This document shows, piece by piece, positions 9,191-49,020 of a DNA stretch of 64,000 nt. Both the position numbers and the translations under genes were made by a program. How positions within the stretch are numbered: the first letter of the stretch is position 1; each line of letters begins with the position of its first letter. The DNA is taken from IMG/VR virus record IMGVR_UViG_3300032245_001746, positions 248,001 through 312,000 of that record; one strand, written 5' to 3'. The notes under the pieces are model-generated. The model made no database searches and had not been told where the DNA came from. It saw nothing but the letters and a program-made list of their open reading frames with translations. The stretch comes from a virus.

Positions 9191-9419
9191 TTTGTTAGCA
9201 TATCTAGCCGCTAAACCTAAAAAAGAAAAACCAACTCTCGCAAAATCAGATAAATCCATGTTAAAAGCATGGATCTATCTAAGAAATAATAAATACTTTA
9301 TTAATGATGTTTTATGCAGACATGGTCTTTCAAGTTGCTATCAAATTGATGAAATCGAACATGAACACGCTATCGCAAATGCATGGAGCCATATATCAGA
9401 TTATCTAGCTAATATTTGA
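9177..9419 (+). CDS. small hypothetical protein
   Basis: 80 residues. A Lys-rich linker (about 13-25) precedes a helical C-terminal part containing RHGLSSCYQIDEIEHEHA. It is the last rightward gene and overlaps the 3' end of the convergent mutase gene by 19 bp. Confidence 0.6.
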   Translation: MSPDDLLAYLAAKPKKEKPTLAKSDKSMLKAWIYLRNNKYFINDVLCRHGLSSCYQIDEIEHEHAIANAWSHISDYLANI

Positions 9420-10498
9420 CTTAAATCTTTTAACGCCATTCCAAATACAGCATCCATATCTAAATACTTATAACTACCTAATCTGCCTCCAAATAATACA
9501 TTGTCAGATTTACTCTTTTCATAATACTTTTTATATAATTCCTGATTTCTAACACTATTTACAGGATAATATCTCTCTCCACCTAATTTATACTCAATAG
9601 GATATTCCTCAGTTATTATCGTATGTTTTAAATTTAAATTATTAACAAAATGCTTATGCTCAATCACACGTGTATAAGGAATGTTTATGTCTGTATAATT
9701 AACCTGAGCTATCCCCTGATAATCACTAATTTCATGACGATACTCTTTAAAATTTAAACTTCTATATTCTAAAAAACCATAACAATAATTATAATATTCG
9801 TCTATACTTCCACTGTATATCAAATTCTTAGCTATTGATTTCCAGTTTAAATCAAACTCTTCACCTAATTTAACCTCAATACCATCCAACAATCTACTAA
9901 ATATATTGGTATAACTTCCATTCATTGGTATTCCACTATACTTTGAATTATGATAATGATCATTATCGTTATATCTAATTGGTAATCTTTTACCTATAGA
10001 ACAAGGAATATTACTGCAACTCGTTCCCCACTGCTTCTCAGAATATCCCTTGTAAAATTTTAAATATATCTCCTCACCTAATTCATTTAATACATGTTTC
10101 TCTAAATTATCCACTTTATCAAAATGTTTTTTTCTTAATTTTAATTCATTTAATACTTCTTCTTCATTATTACAACCCCATAATTGATTAAATGTTTTTA
10201 AATTTATAGGAAAACTGTAAATCTCGCCCTTATAATTTACTTTCACTTTGTGATTATAATTATTTATAGGATATATTGAATTCACATATTCCCAAATTTT
10301 ATCAGAATTAGTATTAAATATATGAGGTCCATATTTATGAACCTCTATTCCATCTACACTCTCAGTATAACAATTACCACCTATATGACACCTTCTATCA
10401 ATTACCAAACAACTCTTACCAACTTTAGTTAACTCATATGCAAGTACACTTCCATATATTCCACTGCCCACAATCATATAATCATACATGCTTACCAC
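9401..10498 (-). CDS. glf: UDP-galactopyranose mutase
   Basis: A flavoenzyme that interconverts UDP-galactopyranose and UDP-galactofuranose. 365 residues, close to the usual 370. The FAD-binding GSGIYGSVLAYELTKVGK is at residues 12-29, followed by VIDRRCHIGGNCYTE, HKYGPHIFNT, the substrate-loop YSEKQWGTSC and RVIEHKHF. The first ATG gives MVSM; MYDYMIVGSG four codons in is equally good. It overlaps the upstream gene by 17 bp. With the neighbouring sulfotransferase- and glycosyltransferase-like genes it suggests modification of a surface glycan or of phage DNA or protein. Confidence 0.95.
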   Translation of the reverse strand: MVSMYDYMIVGSGIYGSVLAYELTKVGKSCLVIDRRCHIGGNCYTESVDGIEVHKYGPHIFNTNSDKIWEYVNSIYPINNYNHKVKVNYKGEIYSFPINLKTFNQLWGCNNEEEVLNELKLRKKHFDKVDNLEKHVLNELGEEIYLKFYKGYSEKQWGTSCSNIPCSIGKRLPIRYNDNDHYHNSKYSGIPMNGSYTNIFSRLLDGIEVKLGEEFDLNWKSIAKNLIYSGSIDEYYNYCYGFLEYRSLNFKEYRHEISDYQGIAQVNYTDINIPYTRVIEHKHFVNNLNLKHTIITEEYPIEYKLGGERYYPVNSVRNQELYKKYYEKSKSDNVLFGGRLGSYKYLDMDAVFGMALKDLSQILAR

Positions 10499-13372: not shown

Positions 13373-13408
13373 ATTGTACAATCAAACTTCCTGTTAAGAA
13401 AATGTTAA

Positions 13409-16315: not shown

Positions 16316-16374
16316 GTTTGTTTCCTTCTGACATCGTCATATTGTACAATCAAACTTCATTGATTAAGTATAAG

Positions 16375-16404
16375 AAAAAACAGGAATGTTTCATTCCTGT
16401 TTTT
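16375..16404 (-). terminator. intrinsic terminator after class A RNA copy 1
   Basis: AAAACAGGAATG pairs with CATTCCTGTTTT, followed by T6 on the minus strand. Confidence 0.85.
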
Positions 16405-16509
16405 AGCGATTTTTGGATAAAATTAGTGTTTTACTCGTTACTTATACAGTAGTATATACTAACGTGGTATACCTTTGTATAAGAACATCGCCAAACGCTC
16501 TACACTAAT
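16405..16509 (-). ncRNA. pseudoknotted RNA, class A copy 1
   Basis: On the minus strand: P1 ATTAGTGT ... ACACTAAT (8 bp); conserved AGAGCGTTT and GGCGATGT; a variable hairpin (CTTATAC/GTATAAG enclosing GGTATACC); conserved ACGAGTAAA; then ATCGCT beyond P1, which can pair with GGCGAT to make a pseudoknot. It is transcribed after tRNA-Lys from promoter 16638 and ends in a terminator. Two further copies are at 32811 and 33387. Confidence 0.75.
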
Positions 16510-16536: not shown

Positions 16537-16553
16537 AAATCGGGATAAATTAG

Positions 16554-16626
16554 TGGTGCCGGTGGGAATCGAACCCACGACCATCGGATTAAAAGTCCGG
16601 TGCTCTACCAACTGAGCTACGACACC
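16554..16626 (-). tRNA. tRNA-Lys (UUU)
   Basis: A 73-nt cloverleaf: acceptor GGTGTCG/CGGCACC, D arm GTAGCTCAGTTGG, anticodon loop CTTTTAA (UUU), T arm GTGGGTTCGATTCCCAC. CCA is not encoded. It has its own array promoter 12 bp upstream. Confidence 0.95.
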
Positions 16627-16652
16627 AATACTGTCAGATTGTACAATCAAAC

Positions 16653-16892
16653 TTACCAGCCGTAATCGGATGGATCGAAACAAGACATGTCTGGATCTGT
16701 ATCTAGTTCCAGATCTAAATCCTCATCCAGATATTCATCCAAATAGCTGTCATTACAGCAACCACATGGACAATACTGATCATATTCCAGATAGGAAAAA
16801 TACAGATCTTCCAATTCGAGTTCTTCACGAACTTGTTCTTCTCTTTCGAGACGTTGTTCTTCGTTGAATTTTGCTACCAGGTTTTTTGACAT
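16653..16892 (-). CDS. very acidic small protein
   Basis: 79 residues from MSKNLVAKFNEEQRL, with GGAGAACAAC before the start. An N-terminal helix of alternating Glu/Arg is followed by CPCGCC and a C-terminus that is largely Asp/Glu. DNA mimicry or metal binding would suit the composition but is speculation. Confidence 0.7.
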   Translation of the reverse strand: MSKNLVAKFNEEQRLEREEQVREELELEDLYFSYLEYDQYCPCGCCNDSYLDEYLDEDLDLELDTDPDMSCFDPSDYGW

Positions 16893-18626: not shown

Positions 18627-19037
18627 TTATGCAGCTTCTGCCGTTGTCGTCGGTTCCAGAACAACAGTTTCGACGGTTTCTTCTGCCGTTTCCGTTGTTT
18701 CGAGGACAACAGTTTCAGTTTCTTCGTCCGTTGGCAGTTCGACGTTCAGGTGTTCGCAGATCAGTTCGAGCATATCTGCGTTCTTGTCCGTCTTCGCGTC
18801 AACAATCGTGTCGATCAGAGAGGTAACAATTGTTCCCTTGAGGAACTGGAGAAGATAGTAACAGGCGAGTTCTGCGTCAGAACCCTGTTCCAGTGTCGCC
18901 ATGAACTTGGCAAATACTTTTGCCATTGTCTTGTCGATTGTGCCGCCCTGTGAGTTCTTATTCTTAGAACCCTTCGGGCGTCCACGTCCACGCTTAGGAG
19001 CTTCGACGTTTACAGTTGTTTCGGCTGAATTTCCCAC
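18627..19037 (-). CDS. AT-hook DNA-binding protein 1
   Basis: 136 residues. The start is GTG, supported by GAAAGGG 8 bp upstream and by the same arrangement in its relative at 33569. KRGRGRPKGSKNKN (residues 15-28) is an AT-hook that would bind AT-rich minor groove. A helical domain (about 35-105) and a Thr/Glu-rich tail follow. The codons are markedly more GC-rich than those of its neighbours. The gene probably acts as a nucleoid or regulatory protein on this AT-rich genome. Confidence 0.75.
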   Translation of the reverse strand: MGNSAETTVNVEAPKRGRGRPKGSKNKNSQGGTIDKTMAKVFAKFMATLEQGSDAELACYYLLQFLKGTIVTSLIDTIVDAKTDKNADMLELICEHLNVELPTDEETETVVLETTETAEETVETVVLEPTTTAEAA

Positions 19038-19190: not shown

Positions 19191-19223
19191 ATTGTACAAT
19201 CAAACTTAATTGATTTAAGGAAT

Positions 19224-19254
19224 AAAAAAAGCAGAGATGTATTATCTCTGCTTT
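19224..19254 (-). terminator. intrinsic terminator after tRNA-Arg
   Basis: AAAGCAGAGAT pairs with ATCTCTGCTTT, with a T-run. Confidence 0.75.
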
Positions 19255-19262
19255 ATAATAAA

Positions 19263-19336
19263 TGTCCCCATCAGGGATCGAACCTGAAACCTACTGCTTA
19301 GAAGGCAGTTGCTCTATCCAATTGAGCTACGAGGAC
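19263..19336 (-). tRNA. tRNA-Arg (UCU)
   Basis: A 74-nt cloverleaf: acceptor GTCCTCG/TGGGGAC with G-U pairs, D arm GTAGCTCAATTGGA, anticodon loop CTTCTAA (UCU), T arm CAGGTTCGATCCCTG. CCA is not encoded. AGA is a rare codon in many enterobacteria, so the phage may be compensating. Confidence 0.94.
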
Positions 19337-19337
19337 A

Positions 19338-19486
19338 AAAGAAACAGACCGATTCAGCATTTCACTATCAATCAGGTGATACGCCCTTACTGGAACTGAT
19401 ATCCAATATTGAATATCAAAAGACGTTTTAAAGTGAAATTTTTTATTAATCCAGTTTATCAGAATTGCTCAGTCTGTTTCTAACTT
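19338..19486 (-). ncRNA. structured 5' leader of tRNA-Arg
   Basis: About 150 nt between promoter 19490 and the tRNA with no ORF. Outer arms AGAAACAGAC/GTCTGTTTCT (19340-19349 and 19472-19481) enclose TTTCACT/AGTGAAA and a TGATAT/ATATCA hairpin. This is much longer than a tRNA leader needs to be, so a separate RNA released by tRNA processing is likely. Confidence 0.55.
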
Positions 19487-19503
19487 CAAATTGTACAATC
19501 AAA

Positions 19504-32008: not shown

Positions 32009-32099
32009 GATTTTTATCTCAAATGGACTATAACAGAATTGAACTGTTTCTAATCACTATTATCGTGATCGTGCTCCGTACACTAATAATCCAGAGTTT
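32009..32099 (-). other. gene-free spacer with small hairpin
   Basis: A 91-bp spacer. ACTATTATCGTGAT at about 32058 can form a weak hairpin; I see no ORF and no array promoter. Confidence 0.3.
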
Positions 32100-32780: not shown

Positions 32781-32810
32781 AAAAAAGAACAGGAAAATTT
32801 CCTGTTCTTT
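32781..32810 (-). terminator. intrinsic terminator after class A RNA copy 2
   Basis: AAAGAACAGGAAA pairs with TTTCCTGTTCTTT, followed by T7. Confidence 0.85.
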
Positions 32811-32896
32811 AGCGATTTTTTAATAATTAGTGTTTTACTCGTCATTAACTAGAAAGTTAATTCTAATTAATACACCGCCAAACGCTCCACACTAAT
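32811..32896 (-). ncRNA. pseudoknotted RNA, class A copy 2
   Basis: P1 ATTAGTGT/ACACTAAT, GGAGCGTTT, GGCGGTGT, a hairpin ATTAACT/AGTTAAT, ACGAGTAAA, P1', then AAAAAATCGCT. Here the pseudoknot is GGCGGT with ATCGCT, with a G-U pair on the minus strand (it would be an A-C mismatch on the plus strand). It follows a 56-residue gene. Confidence 0.75.
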
Positions 32897-32968
32897 GTTC
32901 TACTTTATACTATTGTGAGTATTAAATCCTAATCAATAAGTAGAAAAATGATTAGGTCAAAAATATGA
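32897..32968 (-). other. 3' untranslated spacer
   Basis: A 72-bp AT-rich spacer between the 56-residue gene and class A RNA copy 2. ATTAGGAT/ATGATTAG-type repeats could pair weakly. Confidence 0.3.
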
Positions 32969-33139
32969 TTAACAGAACAGTTGTTCCATTGCTTTGTCAA
33001 ATTCTTTTTCTGACATAGAACTCAAAACACCAATTTCAGGTGCCTTAGAAACAAACTTATTCTGATTTGTCTGCAAATTCGTAATGGTAAATCCACCATT
33101 CTCAGATCGAATTCTGTATTTTTTACTTTGAACGTTCAT
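32969..33139 (-). CDS. small hypothetical protein
   Basis: 56 residues: MNVQSKKYRIRSENGGFTIT ... FDKAMEQLFC. A two-strand N-terminal part precedes a helix. Its ATG is 19 bp from promoter 33158, and class A RNA copy 2 is on the same transcript. Confidence 0.65.
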   Translation of the reverse strand: MNVQSKKYRIRSENGGFTITNLQTNQNKFVSKAPEIGVLSSMSEKEFDKAMEQLFC

Positions 33140-33178
33140 CATTTCTCACAATCCTTCATTGTACAATCAAACTTCATG

Positions 33179-33313
33179 AAGTTGAACAATTAACTAATTA
33201 CCTAATAAAAGTGGCACAATTCTAATTAAATAAGTTGTACTAGGCAGATATTTTGTACCTATTAGGTAATCCACCCTGATAATTAGTTAGTTGCTCAAAC
33301 TCACAATTCTCGT
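33179..33313 (-). ncRNA. long-hairpin RNA between two promoters
   Basis: No ORF. Minus-strand GAGCAACTAACTAATTA pairs with TAATTAGTTAATTGTTC (17 positions, one mismatch, one G-U), and after a 10-nt bulge TTACCTAATA pairs with TATTAGGTAA. It starts at promoter 33314 and ends at promoter 33158 without an obvious terminator. Confidence 0.6.
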
Positions 33314-33350
33314 ATTGTACAATCAAACTTCATTAGAAGTAAATAAATAA

Positions 33351-33386
33351 AACAGGGAATAAGAATTCATCATTCCTATTCCCCGA
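33351..33386 (-). terminator. intrinsic terminator after class A RNA copy 3
   Basis: GGGAATAGGAAT pairs with ATTCTTATTCCC around a short loop, then TGTTTT. Confidence 0.7.
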
Positions 33387-33463
33387 GCGATTTTTTAATA
33401 CTTAACGTTTTACTCGTACGTTTGTAATAAATACAAACACATCGCTAAACGCTCCACGTTAAG
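33387..33463 (-). ncRNA. pseudoknotted RNA, class A copy 3
   Basis: P1 is CTTAACGT/ACGTTAAG, so several base pairs have changed on both sides compared with the other copies, while GGAGCGTTT, AGCGATGT, ACGAGTAAA and ATCGCT are unchanged. The variable hairpin is GTTTGTA/TACAAAC. The pseudoknot pair AGCGAT/ATCGCT is fully Watson-Crick here. Confidence 0.8.
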
Positions 33464-33568: not shown

Positions 33569-34009
33569 TTAAGCCGCTACGGAAACCTCAACCGGCTCAG
33601 GAGTCAGCAAATCAATATATGTCTGACCCTTTGCGTCAACGTGCTCAGAAACCATTGCGAGCAATTTCGCAGTGATATCTACACCACGGGTGAGATCAGA
33701 ATAAAGATCCACCAATTCCGGCTTTGTACAAGAAGCACGAAGCTTTTCCATAATAACTCGGTGAGTCTTATCAACAACTGCCGTTGCTGAATTCTTATTC
33801 TTAGAACCCTTCGGACGACCACGACCAGGCTTTTCAGCCTTAATCGGAGTAAGATCCAAAACAATTCCGTACTCCACAATCTTATCAGCAATATAACTTG
33901 CTGACAAATTCGTAGAACGTGCAACCGCATTGATCAACTGCAATTCATCCTTGCAGTTTTCAAAAGATCGCACTGACAAAATTGCTGCTTCGAGACGTGT
34001 CTTTTCCAC
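33569..34009 (-). CDS. AT-hook DNA-binding protein 2
   Basis: 146 residues. The start is GTG with TTTGGAG 9 bp upstream, as in the relative at 18627; longer frames run through the operator. EKPGRGRPKGSKNKN (about 79-93) is the AT-hook, preceded by a helical region with ASYIADKIVEYG. The GRPKGSKNKN core is identical in the two genes, but the domain order differs (hook N-terminal in one, central in the other). Confidence 0.75.
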   Translation of the reverse strand: MEKTRLEAAILSVRSFENCKDELQLINAVARSTNLSASYIADKIVEYGIVLDLTPIKAEKPGRGRPKGSKNKNSATAVVDKTHRVIMEKLRASCTKPELVDLYSDLTRGVDITAKLLAMVSEHVDAKGQTYIDLLTPEPVEVSVAA

Positions 34010-34042
34010 TGTACTAAACTCCAAAAAAAACTGTTTTTGACT

Positions 34043-34062
34043 TGTCAACACCGTTGTTGACA
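34043..34062 (-). promoter_or_regulatory. operator-like palindrome, second copy
   Basis: TGTCAACAACGGTGTTGACA, identical to 19069-19088, just downstream of promoter 34070. Confidence 0.6.
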
Positions 34063-34086
34063 TCGTCATATTGTACAACCAAACTT

Positions 34087-48928: not shown

Positions 48929-48947
48929 TTTTAATATTCCTAAAAAG

Positions 48948-49020
48948 TGGTGCGGGTGGGAATTGAACCCACGACCAATAGATTAAAAGTCTAGTGCTCT
49001 ACCAACTGAGCTACCACACC
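48948..49020 (-). tRNA. tRNA-Lys (UUU), second copy
   Basis: 73 nt: acceptor GGTGTGG/CCGCACC, anticodon loop CTTTTAA, T arm GTGGGTTCAATTCCCAC. It resembles the gene at 16554 but differs in the acceptor, anticodon stem (CTAGA/TCTAT region) and T loop, so it is not a recent duplicate. No array promoter directly upstream; it follows the gene at 49027 by 6 bp. Confidence 0.94.

Follow-up and report, generated by a model that had tools for sequence, protein, structure and literature searches.

The window considered here, meaning the whole 64,000-nt stretch of DNA that was analysed, covers bases 248001–312000 of the 319,857-base IMG/VR record IMGVR_UViG_3300032245_001746. T4-type genes for the portal, tail sheath, baseplate and terminase identify this uncultured phage as a jumbo myovirus. 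Its nearest named relative by portal protein (50% identity) is LR756511.1, an uncultured phage of 595 kb. The window also contains a UDP-galactopyranose mutase-like gene (9401–10498, minus strand), whose counterparts in Streptococcus, Rhizobium and human gut phages share 37–48% identity with it.

A hyperconserved motif, AAGTTTGATTGTACAAT, occurs about 75 times, at 13389–62592 and in the record to about 317.7 kb, always on the minus strand and with a weaker TGATATCA downstream. The motif is almost absent from the nearest kin. These motifs are very uniform and look like early promoters, and we used them to set the borders of predicted transcription units, giving about 60 promoter-to-promoter intervals. 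Only three of these intervals carry the RNA that is the subject of this analysis.

The first-pass annotation had proposed a pseudoknotted RNA in three copies, built from a set of shared motifs in a fixed order. We found all three copies on the minus strand at 16509–16405 (C1), 32896–32811 (C2) and 33463–33386 (C3). The coordinates of C1 and C2 stand as first given, and the end of C3 moves by one base, from 33387 to 33386. Every motif is present in every copy, in the order described. Read in the RNA sense, this order is P1, L1, S2, a hairpin segment, ACGAGUAAA, P1', L3, S2' and a terminator. The copies are single units of 78–105 nt that lie at least 490 nt apart.

In C1, P1 is at 16509–16502, L1 at 16501–16493, S2 at 16492–16487, the hairpin segment at 16486–16439, ACGAGTAAA at 16438–16430, P1' at 16429–16422, L3 at 16421–16411 and S2' at 16410–16405. 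The same parts of C2 are at 32896–32889 (P1), 32888–32880 (L1), 32879–32874 (S2), 32873–32843 (hairpin segment), 32842–32834 (ACGAGTAAA), 32833–32826 (P1'), 32825–32817 (L3) and 32816–32811 (S2'). For C3 they are at 33463–33456, 33455–33447, 33446–33441, 33440–33418, 33417–33409, 33408–33401, 33400–33392 and 33391–33386, in the same order. L1 is 9 nt long (RGAGCGUUU) and near-invariant among the three copies, and ACGAGUAAA, between the hairpin and P1', is identical in all three. L3 is A-rich and reads UUUAUCCAAAA or UAUUAAAAA, the latter in both C2 and C3. The hairpin segment varies in length, with 48, 31 and 23 nt in C1, C2 and C3.

A terminator had been reported behind each copy, and all three are there, with the stem adjoining S2'. 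Directly after C1 is an intrinsic terminator with a 13-bp stem (16376–16404), and directly after C2 there is one with a 12-bp stem (32784–32810). The terminator hairpin directly after C3 (33353–33385) has a 14-bp stem and an interrupted U-tract (TTTTATTTAT). All three are on the minus strand, as are the copies.

Each copy forms the 3' end of a predicted early transcription unit, not its 5' leader. The C1 unit has a promoter-like 16-mer, AGTTTGATTGTACAAT, at 16638–16653, and its sole recognisable gene is a tRNA-Lys(UUU) directly upstream of C1 (16553–16626). Upstream of C2 in its unit is a predicted ORF of 57 aa (32969–33142) with no significant family match, and upstream of C3 is a predicted ORF of 169 aa (33569–34078) with a GRGRPKGSKNK motif and no family match; all of these features are on the minus strand. 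The neighbours of the three copies gave no significant match in Pfam or PADLOC. Within tens of bases of each copy, the next unit opens with a strong promoter-like motif of its own, and the sequences downstream of C1, C2 and C3 are unrelated to each other. C1 and C2 are similar over their conserved 3' part and on through the terminator (16372–16438 with 32781–32842), and 5' of P1 there is no similarity among the copies. Since the similarity includes the terminator and stops at P1, we define the module as running from P1 to the terminator, and it would be independent of the gene upstream.

We made several other observations on these genes. The 169-aa ORF and an ORF at 18627–19037 (minus strand) are partly related and have similar 5' regions, and both carry the GRGRPKGSKNK motif, which is AT-hook or H-NS-like. 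There are two tRNA-Lys(UUU) genes, the one at 16553–16626 and another at 48947–49020, which are 89% identical. Additional tRNA predictions are a tRNA-Arg, a tRNA-Met and two tRNA-Leu(UAA); the tRNA-Leu at 32023–32093 has no Rfam support. The tRNA-Arg unit (19207–19489, minus strand) has a potentially structured leader of about 130 nt with a TTTCACT/AGTGAAA stem. We also asked whether a conserved hairpin upstream of the copies could be a processing signal. This hairpin ranked in the top 4% for C1, 17% for C3 and 68% for C2, and we rejected it as a shared feature because it is strong only in C1, weak in C3 and absent in C2.

The early region holds other candidate small RNAs. One of these, which we call RNA E, is a duplicated noncoding RNA of 119 nt (14726–14609 and 18298–18182, minus strand, 91% identical). 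Both copies have a rod-like fold and a promoter motif of their own and end in an abutting terminator, the stem of which is changed on both sides between the copies. RNA E has no match in Rfam and none by phage BLAST. It suggests that small structured RNA genes may be a habit of this phage. Between C3 and C2, at 33174–33313 on the minus strand, there is also a unit of 140 bases with no plausible ORF. It has a promoter motif of its own and a long paired stem, and is possibly another small RNA.

All three copies fold as an H-type pseudoknot with an additional hairpin in loop 2. P1 had been described as an 8-bp stem that changes on both sides, and this is what we see: it has 8 bp in every copy and reads ATTAGTGT/ACACTAAT in C1 and C2 and CTTAACGT/ACGTTAAG in C3. 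Three of the eight pairs differ between C3 and the other two copies, and every one of these differences is compensated. Among all three-change variants of the P1 3' strand, fully pairing strands are 1 in 1512. Cognate P1 strands pair with -6.8 and -7.4 kcal/mol, and swapped strands pair poorly (+0.7 kcal/mol for the 5' strand of C3 with the 3' strand of C1, -0.8 kcal/mol for the reverse). The second stem, S2, has 6 bp, and S2' (AUCGCU) pairs with RGCGRU across P1 in all three copies, as the first-pass annotation had proposed. It had also pointed to a G-U pair in S2 that is valid on the minus strand only. S2 departs only by such pairs: its first pair is G-U in C1 and C2, and so is the fifth in C2.

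Of all cells, 94% are paired in the named structure, compared with 30–56% in slid controls. The embedded hairpins are unrelated in sequence, and each was matched or beaten by only 1–2 of 1000 shuffles. About 1084 places in the record fit a pseudoknot descriptor that is blind to sequence. When these places are combined with the loops, only C1, C2 and C3 reach 17–18 of 18 loop letters; the runner-up has 10. Chance is excluded for the triplet, taking fold and loops together, but not for the topology alone. As P1 is identical in C1 and C2, its covariation counts as a single divergence, and the covariation is this one divergence plus the hairpins, not many independent events. Folding energy z-scores, which were computed without the pseudoknot, range from -0.6 to -5.0 and are uninformative alone. 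For C1 and C2, other nested folds reach about the same stability as the ones with P1. The fold, the strand, the pattern of conservation and the position can all be read from the sequence itself, which supports a structured, pseudoknotted minus-strand RNA with genuine compensatory change.

No family had been recognised for this RNA, and our searches agree with that. When we ran the Rfam 15 covariance models, only tRNAs reached the gathering threshold, and there was no credible match below the thresholds either: the best matches over C2 and C3 had 20–22 bits against thresholds of 56–59, and these bits came largely from the terminator. We also made a covariance model of the three copies themselves. 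It did not find a fourth in the 320-kb record, and it found none in six kin records, the 595-kb LR756511.1 among them, in a search that had no positive control. Strict and loosened motif patterns gave only chance matches in IMG/VR, among the matches listed, and patterns of the loop-containing core gave only chance matches in 85,000 prokaryote species genomes; none of the chance matches joins P1, L2 and S2'. Both pattern scans demand exact motif letters, and the family may exist elsewhere with different loops. BLASTN against GenBank phages and plasmids returned nothing meaningful. With these searches empty, all the evidence comes from three paralogues of a single metagenomic phage. We regard the three copies as a real, strand-specific family of predicted structured RNAs that is absent from Rfam and so far private to one phage.

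The likeness to small riboswitches or ribozymes that had been suggested for the layout was not supported. The copies are 3'-terminal modules of their units, not 5' leaders, and the fold is H-type, not HDV-like. A riboswitch precedes the gene that it controls, as part of its 5' leader. The copies have no such location, and each subsequent unit starts with a promoter motif of its own, which argues against an ordinary riboswitch. The preQ1-I/II, SAM-II and fluoride riboswitches are small H-type pseudoknots with conserved loops, and they share with this RNA an A-rich loop 3 along stem 1 and an adjoining terminator. They differ from it in that our RNA lies at the 3' end of a unit, has a hairpin in loop 2 and has no Rfam match.

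A self-cleaving ribozyme that cuts at the 5' edge of P1 would explain why the similarity among the copies starts there, and small ribozymes are typically pseudoknots with fixed loops and free stems. However, we found no match to an Rfam ribozyme. In HDV-like ribozymes J1/2 is short and J4/2 holds a conserved catalytic C, whereas L1 is 9 nt long here and the L3 of C2 and C3 (UAUUAAAAA) has no C. We give hardly any credence to this explanation.

Two other known types of RNA were tried and rejected. The record encodes a TnpB-like protein of 399 aa with OrfB_IS605 and Cas12f1-like_TNB domains at about 90.77–91.97 kb. We rejected a TnpB or Cas12f guide RNA, as tnpB is more than 170 kb away and the copies are followed by terminator hairpins, not a guide; the covariance model from the three copies had no credible match near tnpB. 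A retron (reverse-transcriptase-linked) RNA was rejected as there is no RVT_1 in the record. The stable RNAs C and D of phage T4 are small noncoding RNAs of unknown function that occur as single copies in a tRNA cluster. They are similar by description alone, as small noncoding RNAs of a large myovirus with adjoining tRNA genes, and differ in being single copies within the cluster. The pseudoknot RNA resembles other H-type pseudoknot RNAs and is a member of no tested family.

Its position raises the question of whether it serves the transcript that it ends. The pseudoknot could be a cis-acting 3'-end element that stabilises the transcript end or, in the manner of an xrRNA, halts a 5'-3' exonuclease and leaves a stable 3' fragment. 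It lies at the 3' end of a unit, immediately before the terminator, in all three copies, and fixed loops with free stems are compatible with a purely structural role. An exonuclease block is mechanically possible in bacteria, given that RNase J1, a bacterial 5'-3' exonuclease, can be stopped in vitro by a folded viral xrRNA (PMC5760640). The xrRNAs of flaviviruses and plant viruses may be analogous, as pseudoknotted 3'-UTR elements of the kind that would leave a stable 3' fragment. However, those RNAs have a three-way junction, and the pairing pattern here is unlike that of flaviviruses: it is a two-stem pseudoknot with a loop-2 hairpin, in a DNA phage. One copy also stands behind a tRNA, and tRNA 3' ends are produced by other enzymes. 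General 3'-end housekeeping is disfavoured because so few intervals (3 of about 60) carry the pseudoknot. We consider a 3'-end element possible but on balance doubtful.

A related proposal is that the pseudoknot regulates the terminator, as a sensor of a ligand or protein or as an antitermination element that sets read-through and couples one unit to the next. S2' adjoins the terminator stem in all three copies, and the AGCG within L1 could pair with S2' instead. On the other hand, read-through would add little because the next unit has its own strong promoter-like motif, and the abutment is not special because RNA E and the tRNA-Arg likewise end in abutting or nearby terminators. The lack of an Rfam riboswitch match and the unrelated sequences downstream of the three copies also count against such a regulator, which we judge to be quite unlikely.

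The loops offer a different route to function. If the RNA were an antisense small RNA, its conserved single strands would pair with phage or host messages; the conserved single-stranded 9-mers and the A-rich stretch before a U-rich terminator do resemble Hfq-type small RNAs. However, 120 phage translation starts showed no enrichment of sequences complementary to L1, L2 or L3, and a simple seed would not need compensatory P1 and S2. We find antisense action very unlikely. Another idea is that the RNA holds a leader mini-ORF, with RGAG-N9-RUG as a ribosome site and a start codon that is partly hidden in S2. All three copies have (A/G)GAG followed at equal distance by AUG or GUG, and C2, with GUG in place of AUG, still has a start codon. 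The resulting peptides have 9, 2 and 10 codons with nothing useful in common, however, and we believe that this is the least credible of the explanations considered here.

The explanation that we favour, tentatively and with somewhat less than even confidence, is a phage-specific small noncoding RNA, consisting of the pseudoknot and terminator, that acts in trans and presents its fixed loops to a protein. The loops are fixed and the stems are free, so it would be the loops, as presented by the fold, that do the work. Because the copies are 3'-terminal and stand behind unrelated genes, once a tRNA, the RNA is probably not a switch for one gene. Nor could it serve a common message, since the upstream genes are unrelated and the only recognisable gene of the C1 unit is tRNA-Lys. 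We favour protein binding over pairing with phage messages because the loop complements are not enriched. Against the trans-acting RNA, the 3'-terminal position is equally expected of a cis-acting stability or termination element. We infer the transcription of the RNA, its processing or release, its action in trans and its protein partner.

Under this explanation, a module made up of the H-type pseudoknot, the variable loop-2 hairpin and its own terminator would have been duplicated to three sites in the early region. An early promoter would transcribe each copy as the 3' end of a unit, behind the tRNA-Lys, the 57-aa ORF or the 169-aa ORF. The product would be a 3'-terminal RNA of roughly 110–135 nt, either released from the upstream gene or left as a stable end of decay. 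The stems would be interchangeable, and the conserved single strands (RGAGCGUUU, ACGAGUAAA and the A-rich L3) would form the working surface. The folded loops would then bind a protein in trans, which may be a host enzyme, a defence factor or a phage regulator, and having three copies would raise the dose of the RNA.

A special case of the trans-acting RNA is a decoy or antitoxin mimic, which would imitate the pseudoknotted RNA that partners a host defence nuclease, such as a type III toxin, and would keep the nuclease inactive during infection. Type III antitoxins are H-type pseudoknots that precede an intrinsic terminator, and those of the ToxIN family are tandem repeats of 34–36 nt (PMC5086642). 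There is a phage precedent in PhiTE, which keeps the toxin inactive with a pseudo-ToxI RNA (PMC3475682). Our RNA shares with ToxI, CptI, TenpI and pseudo-ToxI the layout of an H-type pseudoknot followed by an intrinsic terminator, and the early region is rich in small genes without known function. However, judging by sequence, only the H-type fold is present and not an array of short tandem repeats: the copies are widely spaced single units with an extra hairpin and no Rfam match. The exact-pattern search for the loop core in the 85,000 species genomes, with its chance matches only, also argues against a decoy. A search of the record for the ToxN family gave no match, and the control search was equally silent. 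We think that a decoy is improbable, to the same degree as the antisense RNA.

It is unlikely, but conceivable, that the three copies represent a new class of phage RNA. This would be either a folded early pseudoknot, amplified in dose, that inhibits a host or defence protein by its shape alone, or an exonuclease-resistant RNA of a DNA phage that makes stable RNAs from unrelated 3' ends.

Functions are known for few of the structured RNAs that phages encode; pseudo-ToxI, which is among the best studied of these RNAs, counters host defence. A pseudoknot that has been kept through divergence at three sites in a jumbo phage is a concrete candidate for RNA-based control of the host. Together with the nearby RNA E, it suggests that very large phages may carry small RNA genes that are missed by protein-centred annotation.
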